A stretch of 53,803 nt of DNA from Candidatus Vecturithrix granuli (GTDB taxonomy: Bacteria > Moduliflexota > Moduliflexia > Moduliflexales > Moduliflexaceae), in contig DF820465.1 of assembly GCA_000739535.1 (NCBI GenBank), positions 63,307 to 117,109 of the forward strand, given 5' to 3'. The position numbers and the translations under genes were made by a program. The notes under the pieces were generated by a model, which worked only from the letters and a program-made list of their open reading frames with translations, was not told where the DNA came from and made no database searches. Position 1 is the stretch's first letter, and every line of letters begins with the position of its first letter. Shown here one piece after another: positions 2,274 through 3,706 of the stretch.

Positions 2274-2448
2274 TAGTGGTTAAATAGTAAGTGATGACTC
2301 ATGCTTCACGATGCGGTCAGGAGTGGTCGTCGCAACGGCATCAGCGATGCCGCGCCTGTCAGGGCGTTGCCCTGATGCGATGACCTCATCGCACTCCTTA
2401 GGTGCTGAGCAGTGTTCCGGGCACTCATCACTTACAATTTAACCACTA
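2274..2448. mobile_element. MITE-like element with 24-base terminal inverted repeats
   Basis: The ends at 2274-2297 and 2425-2448 are inverted repeats (tagtggttaaatagtaagtg at the left, continuing tga) with one mismatch. The ~125-base interior is rich in small hairpins, for example gcatcagcgatgc, tcagggcgttgccctga and gcgatgacctcatcgc. No coding capacity belongs to it. Its right end lies within the first codons of the NACHT remnant that follows, so insertion or an associated deletion probably removed that gene's upstream part. Confidence 0.7.
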
Positions 2449-3637
2449 TCTATTATTGACCATGATTGCCAATGTCCACAACTATCGCGGCGCCTTGCCG
2501 GAGAAACGCGTAGATTTGTACGCGGAAATCTGCGACGTGCTGTTGGGGCACTGGCAGCGTGGGAAAGGGTTGGGAGAACGTCTGACAGCCGCGCAGCGGC
2601 GCGTGGCCCTGCAACCGCTGGCGGACGCGATGATGAGACGGAACCTGCGTGAAATCAGGACCCAGGATGCGCTGGCGGTCATGCGTGAGCACCTGTTGCG
2701 GATTGGTATAAGCGAAGAGGAGATTCCGGCCTTTCTCCCTGATCTTCAGGCTAACTGCGGCGTATTGGTGGAAAAAGAAGTGGATGTGTGGGCATTTGCG
2801 CATCTGACCTTTCAGGAATACCTGTGCGCCGCCCATTGGAAAGCCAGCGGCAAAGCCCTGCAATGGGAATTCCCGCAATGGCAGAGCCTGATTGCGGAAA
2901 GCTGGTGGCATGAAACCCTGTTGTTGTATGCCGCGCAGCAGGATGCCACGCCATTGGTGAACGCCTGTTTACAGATTAACTCGCCTTCCGCCTTACGTCT
3001 GGCTGCGAATATGAGCCGGGAGGCCTTGCAGCTTGAGAGTTCCCTGCGTGAAACCATCGCTGTCTCCCTGAAAACGCTGATCATTCAGCTTCGCCGCGAA
3101 CCGAAAGCGGTGTCTGAGGAAGAATTCATAGAAGTTTTTCAGCTTGATGATCAATGGCGGCCGCTGGCGTATATCCAGAATGAATATGAGGATCAGGGCG
3201 AAGTGATCATCGATCATGCCACCGGCTTGATGTGGCAGAAATCAGGATCGGATGAGGAGTTGACCTATCAGGCAGCCCCAAATTATATTATCCAACTCAA
3301 TCAGCAGCGTTTTGCCGGCCATAGCGACTGGCGTCTGCCGACTATACCGGAACTGATGTCCTTGTTAGAGCCGGAAAAGCAGGCAAACGATTTGTACATC
3401 AATCCTCGATTTGATGCACGGCAGCGGTGGTGTTGGAGCGCTGACAGAATATTAGAATCTTCTGAACAGAGTGCTTCAAGACAGGGAGGGCTTCTGGCCT
3501 GGTTTCAAAGGCTGAGAGGGAGAGGCCGGCGAGGTTCGTCGGGGTCGGCGTGGGACGTCCTTTTCCTCAACGGCAGCGTGCACTGGGACTACTTCCCCTA
3601 CGCCAGCTACGTTCGCGCGGTTCGTTCCAGACAATGA
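2402..3637 (+). CDS. Truncated NACHT-family protein with C-terminal DUF1566 (lectin-like) domain
   Basis: The frame encodes 411 residues, but the first ~15 come from the MITE. Native sequence begins around YLLLTMIANVHNYRGALPEKR, the segment that follows the NTPase core in NACHT/STAND proteins, so Walker A and B are missing. HLTFQEYLCAAHW (residues ~139-151) is a typical NACHT-associated signature. Residues ~275-411 form a DUF1566/Lcl-type domain (ATGLMWQKSG, DWRLPTIPEL, then W....F..G and YVRAVRS at the end). The last variable segment (codons 3554-3610) is almost entirely NNC codons, as in diversity-generating-retroelement targets. The full-length gene would be a conflict or defence sensor; this copy is probably non-functional unless expressed from the new start. 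Confidence 0.65.
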   Translation: MLSSVPGTHHLQFNHYLLLTMIANVHNYRGALPEKRVDLYAEICDVLLGHWQRGKGLGERLTAAQRRVALQPLADAMMRRNLREIRTQDALAVMREHLLRIGISEEEIPAFLPDLQANCGVLVEKEVDVWAFAHLTFQEYLCAAHWKASGKALQWEFPQWQSLIAESWWHETLLLYAAQQDATPLVNACLQINSPSALRLAANMSREALQLESSLRETIAVSLKTLIIQLRREPKAVSEEEFIEVFQLDDQWRPLAYIQNEYEDQGEVIIDHATGLMWQKSGSDEELTYQAAPNYIIQLNQQRFAGHSDWRLPTIPELMSLLEPEKQANDLYINPRFDARQRWCWSADRILESSEQSASRQGGLLAWFQRLRGRGRRGSSGSAWDVLFLNGSVHWDYFPYASYVRAVRSRQ

Positions 3638-3686: not shown

Positions 3687-3706
3687 ACAGGGGGCTTGCC
3701 CCCTGT
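3687..3706 (+). terminator. Hairpin, probable terminator after the NACHT remnant
   Basis: acagggggcttgccccctgt forms an 8-bp GC-rich stem with a cttg loop and is followed within a few bases by cgaaaaattttt. It fits a rho-independent terminator. A hairpin just downstream of a diversity-generating-retroelement variable region is the alternative reading. Confidence 0.55.

Follow-up and report, generated by a model that had tools for sequence, protein, structure and literature searches.

Diversity-generating retroelements (DGRs) are bacterial systems in which chosen protein tips are rewritten through error-prone copying of a template at every A. In a stretch of 53,803 nucleotides from Candidatus Vecturithrix granuli (hereafter the window), a gene with a DUF1566 domain carries a dense run of C-ending codons near its 3′ end, which a reading of the sequence alone had attributed to such rewriting. 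This raises the question of whether the gene is a DGR target and, if so, where the template and the reverse transcriptase (RT) that acted on it are to be found. We addressed this question in the whole genome, which comprises 8.4 Mb in 21 contigs and has the window on contig C19, and in G001, which represents a sister genus.

Results

Codon composition of the variable region

The candidate variable region (VR) and its framework span positions 3533–3637 of the window on the forward strand (GGTTCGTCGGGGTCGGCGTGG ... TACGTTCGCGCGGTTCGTTCCAGACAATGA), and this framework is common to eight VRs of the same genome. Based on the sequence comparisons described below, we consider it very probable that this segment is the DGR variable region of a target gene.

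The 19 codons at 3554–3610 read GAC GTC CTT TTC CTC AAC GGC AGC GTG CAC TGG GAC TAC TTC CCC TAC GCC AGC TAC. A recount confirmed that exactly 16 of them end in C, compared with 23% in the remainder of the open reading frame (ORF), which corresponds to a binomial P of 2.8e-8 for a single 19-codon window and of ~1e-5 over the whole ORF. Among the 16,645 windows of 19 codons in frames that extend over at least 150 codons from stop to stop, 15 or more C-ending codons were present in five, and all five overlap 3554–3610, which is the richest place in the long frames of this stretch. The genome contains 15 genes with an Lcl_C (DUF1566) domain. C-ending codons account for 9–16 of 19 in the eight VR-like genes and for 4–11 of 19 in the other seven, so the bias belongs to the VR-like subset, with overlapping ranges.

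The hypervariable codons themselves (3554–3607, forward strand) correspond to AAC or AAT in a homologous template. Not all 16 C-ending codons are diversified: about 12 codons vary among the paralogs, whereas GTC, TTC, GGC and the final TAC belong to the fixed framework.

A truncated NACHT–DUF1566 gene

The VR belongs to an ORF of 411 aa (2402–3637, forward strand), a 5′-truncated NACHT–DUF1566 target gene in which the first ~16 codons are inserted repeat. The DUF1566 domain sits at the 3′ end of this gene. An Lcl_C match (PF07603, E 8.6e-21) covers 3203–3625 on the forward strand, placed at C19:66509–66931 by the genome search, and the VR is found at the end of the domain. Directly before the VR, at 3465–3540, the window gene has ~22 additional residues that are absent from six aligned VR-bearing relatives. 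For the C-type-lectin fold, structure prediction from the lone sequence gave a pLDDT of 34.7, and the best PDB profile match was weak (8q4e, E 0.047). The window protein had no match in PADLOC.

The NACHT remnant to which the domain was said to be fused is also real. The segment 2450–3064 (forward strand) is the remnant of a region C-terminal to the NACHT NTPase, as identified by tblastn with the TIR-NACHT-FGE target of contig C14 (E 2.8e-13), and ORF residues 2–409 align at 50% identity with residues 383–759 of an intact G001 protein. The latter comprises 759 residues, with the NACHT domain (PF05729) at 194–352 and Lcl_C at 644–758. The first 382 residues of this relative are missing from the window gene, which has no NTPase domain or P-loop; the domain is intact in G001. 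A MITE-like element of 175 bp (2274–2448), with 24-nt terminal inverted repeats that are 96% complementary, lies exactly at the truncation point. Because the ORF begins at this element, the NTPase and the N-terminus have been lost, which makes the window copy most probably a relic, or at most a target that still works in part. Given this truncation and a template that was not seen, current DGR activity at the window copy is doubtful.

Repeat words of the MITE-like element also extend across the start of a TPR gene on C19 that is otherwise unrelated. Elsewhere in the window, palindromic repeats of the GCCCTGAAAGGGC type occur five times at 300–700, together with inverted arms of 50 nt. A Y1 transposase gene (595–1131, PF01797) lies beside these repeats and probably supplies the transposase of this REP-like array.

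Variable columns among paralogous VRs

The column tests covered the eight of the 15 Lcl_C genes that have the VR framework; the other seven were excluded here and retained in the codon comparison above. Among the VRs of the window, contig C15 and contig C21 (C21a), which share one framework, 22 columns vary, and at 21 of these the template of contig C10 has an A (Fisher P 1e-12); this template serves here as a homologous reference and not as their cognate template. In pairwise comparisons these three VRs differ at 1–2 of 71 non-A columns versus 15–18 of 25 A columns, and the window VR matches the C15 and C21 VRs at 70 of the 71 non-A columns each. The three genes have unrelated N-termini. The C15 gene encodes a trypsin–TPR–DUF1566 protein, and C21a is a DUF1566 gene with an internal stop. 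Upstream of the VR, the window gene is merely 66–70% identical to the C15 and C21a genes. The downstream 100 nt are more alike (77–87% identity between loci, and 77–85% for the window gene with the other two), and the shared module is therefore larger than the VR.

G001 carries two VRs with a framework similar to that of the window; they show 15 differences, 14 of them at template A. When single VRs were compared with the C10 template, P was ≤0.0094 in seven of nine. C15 was not significant (P 0.069), and C10a showed no A preference (12 of 29 A versus 28 of 58 non-A columns, P 0.65) in an ungapped comparison that ignores the 3-nt insertion carried by this VR. The paralogous VRs thus differ almost solely at template adenines, which supports the DGR assignment: the window VR has been diversified at some time.

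Templates

The C10 template (SAQSAWNVNFNNGNVNWNNLNNDNYVRCVRSGK) is an orphan DUF1566-type repeat on the minus strand (C10:171131–171235), 0.4 kb downstream of the gene that carries its VR. It differs from this neighbouring VR at 13 of 87 columns, 12 of them among the 29 A columns (Fisher P 3e-6), and the sole non-A difference is a change of GTC to CTC. The genes upstream of the template encode vWA, MoxR-type AAA and TIR proteins; no RT was found near it. The window VR and the C10 template disagree at 12 of the 71 non-A columns, and a second template must consequently exist or have existed.

We failed to identify a template with the window-type framework in the gapped assembly by pattern search, BLASTN or sequence model. 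The sequence model returned nine matches in the genome, the C10 template in addition to the eight VRs. One weak, unrelated locus came from a scan of genome contigs. AAC density was further scanned in eleven 20-kb loci and the window; all these template searches together detected just the C10 template and an FGE-type template on C19, the partner VR of which was not found in the assembly. Viral contigs (exact 21-base pattern) and plasmids (blastn) contained no copy. Stretches of N are located at the DGR loci, so the absence of a template from the assembly does not prove its absence from the organism.

The sequence-only reading had expected a near-identical template next to an RT somewhere in the genome, and had named the lack of any template or DGR-type RT as the finding that would count against it. 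That outcome did not occur, as the genome holds two DGR-type RTs and, on a contig other than that of the window, the DUF1566-type C10 template; a near-identical template for the window VR was not found.

Reverse transcriptases and accessory genes

A Pfam RVT_1 search of the genome gave six matches, of which two are DGR-type RTs. The RT at C19:593901–594833 is directly followed by the AAC-rich FGE-type template, and the RT at C14:235252–236373 lies behind a TIR-NACHT-FGE gene that is interrupted by a run of N. No RT is encoded near the window gene; the nearest on the contig is the one at C19:593901, ~0.5 Mb from C19:66509. The two RTs are 91% identical over 311 residues, and both contain GLPIGNLTSQ, which we take to be a mark of DGR RTs. 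The C14 RT aligns with brt of Bordetella phage BPP-1 at 36% identity (72% of the query covered), and its match to phrog_1423 (E 6e-113) extends over almost the full length. The best NCBIfam match was a group II intron RT model at 148.6 bits, far below the 300-bit cut-off of that model. Judged by the motif, the homology to brt and the phrog_1423 match, both proteins are assigned to the DGR type. The RTs on C3, C16 and C20 were set aside as candidate machinery because inspection of their sequences led us to read these ORFs as group II intron or retron-like.

Avd-like C-termini precede both RTs and run into N stretches. The bAvd search gave no match in this genome, in which the likely avd genes run into such stretches. 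The G001 contig C41 encodes an FGE target, bAvd and a DGR RT in this order, with the RT split over two frames, and no template was seen on this 6-kb contig. At C19:593901–596650, the RT is followed by the FGE-type template and two small ORFs that by eye resemble a nucleotidyltransferase/HEPN pair. A homologue of the final part of the C14 RT sits 1.7 kb further along the C19 locus, which indicates that a deletion, insertion or fusion near codon 311 distinguishes the C19 locus from the C14 locus.

A hairpin downstream of the VR

A GC-rich hairpin is located at 3688–3705, 50 nt past the stop codon of the window gene, and could represent a DGR target hairpin or a terminator. Its sequence, CAGGGGGCTTGCCCCCTG, has three exact copies in the 8.4-Mb genome, each just downstream of a VR, and the single copy with one mismatch follows a gene without a VR. 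A stem-loop follows seven of ten VRs, with differing stems, and is absent from three; in C21a, C20b and both G001 VRs it is found at the equivalent place with other stem sequences. The C10 template has no stem-loop at the corresponding place.

Other VR-bearing genes

In the other VR-bearing genes, the same tip is preceded by trypsin-TPR, TIR, nSTAND1 or weak NACHT/nSTAND regions, the last of these below the Pfam cut-off. The VR-bearing DUF1566 genes at C20:198962 and C21:600115 are interrupted by an in-frame stop immediately ahead of the VR, and several targets of this genome therefore look decayed. Neighbouring DUF1566 domains at C21:770950–771923 belong to a different subtype and are without the VR framework.

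Discussion

Based on these results, we propose that reverse transcription of a template with a framework like that of the three window-type VRs introduced random bases at adenines, and that the resulting cDNA replaced the 3′ end of the NACHT–DUF1566 gene by mutagenic retrohoming. This event would have taken place in this lineage through one of the two DGR-type RTs on C19 (0.5 Mb off) and C14, probably acting in trans. About 12 DUF1566 codons would have been rewritten in a tip expected to be C-type-lectin-like and to bind a ligand, and the C-ending codons would have avoided stops during rewriting. The NACHT protein may have functioned as a defence sensor. The window copy later lost its N-terminal 382 residues adjoining the MITE-like element.

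The codon signature and the column pattern have to be weighed against other origins. One gene by itself gives just a codon statistic, so a chance codon bias of no biological meaning was considered; this explanation has a negligible probability, since the bias reaches ~1e-5 over the ORF, is unique among 16,645 windows and is joined by the paralog and template evidence. We also regard it as very unlikely that the genes form an ordinary family of old DUF1566 duplicates, with diversifying selection on surface codons and C-endings from local base composition. DUF1566 is a large family with 15 copies in this genome, and two of those placed outside the VR class have as many as 11 C-ending codons in 19. 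However, amino-acid selection does not restrict change to those first and second bases at which an independent template has A while synonymous sites stay identical, and the column test, which places 21 of 22 variable columns at A with 1–2 differences at 71 non-A columns, refutes this reading in practical terms.

A stronger competitor accepts the DGR and moves it elsewhere: the retroelement would have acted in an ancestor or a different host, and the DUF1566 tip would afterwards have spread, together with its 3′ flank, through recombination or transposition, without any DGR of the present genome ever acting on it. The missing cognate template, the MITE-like element at the window locus and a downstream 100 nt that is more alike (77–87%) than the upstream gene (66–70%) are all in line with such spread. 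On the other side, the same-framework group occupies three contigs and differs in its VR letters, a similar framework exists in the sister genus, and the genome holds DGR-type RTs and a DUF1566-type template. We accordingly consider spread from elsewhere possible but the less probable account, and return to diversification within this lineage.

The locus illustrates that a DGR target is recognisable from the codon composition of one raw sequence, with paralogs then confirming it, and that recognition worked despite a distant template and RT and a decaying gene. The lineage adds eight DUF1566 VRs across different defence-type effectors, with one visible orphan template, and offers a system in which to test whether a single RT works in trans on several templates and target families. 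Tentatively, one DUF1566 sensor module may be mounted on at least five kinds of conflict protein (NACHT, nSTAND1, TIR, trypsin-TPR and the vWA/MoxR/TIR cluster) and a small number of solitary templates may direct the rewriting of its tips in trans, through RTs whose neighbouring targets belong to another C-lectin family (FGE), as a shared genome-wide diversification service for unrelated effectors, a scheme that we consider rather unlikely.

Comparison with known systems

The hairpin can be compared with that of BPP-1, which requires such a structure; published examples lie 4–34 bp from the VR and have GRNA loops (PMC3240598). A GC-rich hairpin follows the VR in both systems, but that of the window is ~50 nt past the stop codon, has no GRNA tetraloop and is followed by poly-T tracts, as a terminator would be; it is possibly one. 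The BPP-1 DGR (brt, mtd) further shares with the present system a homologous RT (36% identity) and adenine-directed change.

In the human microbiome, DUF1566 was reported as the commonest DGR target domain, with 47 proteins (PMC4159848), and the VR likewise occupies the C-terminal end of the domain. These are metagenome proteins, and the passages that describe them do not mention a NACHT fusion (PMC4159848).

The report on the DGRs of Thiohalocapsa sp. PB-PSB1 and further multicellular bacteria describes a parallel, with several DGR targets per genome and activity in trans (PMC10907252). According to that account, diversified C-type-lectin tips are carried by NACHT, STAND, TIR and vWA/MoxR conflict proteins with modular N-termini, activity in trans explains remote targets, and MITE-like elements erode incomplete loci, all of which resembles the situation described here. 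It also presents a ternary layout of vWA, MoxR-type AAA and TIR like that upstream of the C10 template, and an RT adjoining the target is not universal in such DGRs, as a result of activity in trans (PMC10907252). In contrast, the remote VRs of two Thiohalocapsa loci match a template elsewhere in the genome at all non-A sites, whereas the window VR matches none in the assembly in this way, and the truncation of the window gene is a further difference from the Thiohalocapsa targets; the main text of that paper does not contain the term DUF1566 (PMC10907252).

The viral contig IMGVR_UViG_3300010397_000059 (L146) carries DUF1566 VRs with the same framework words, a template with the same AWNVNFNNGN words and an RT that is 37% identical to the C14 RT. 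It differs in being a complete locus in cis, with targets, an Avd-like ORF, the template repeat and the RT together. Between this repeat and three VRs there are 11, 14 and 15 differences, all at A and none at non-A positions. Viewed alongside these systems, the window gene is a further case of the known DGR targets in NACHT/TIR/STAND/MoxR conflict systems.
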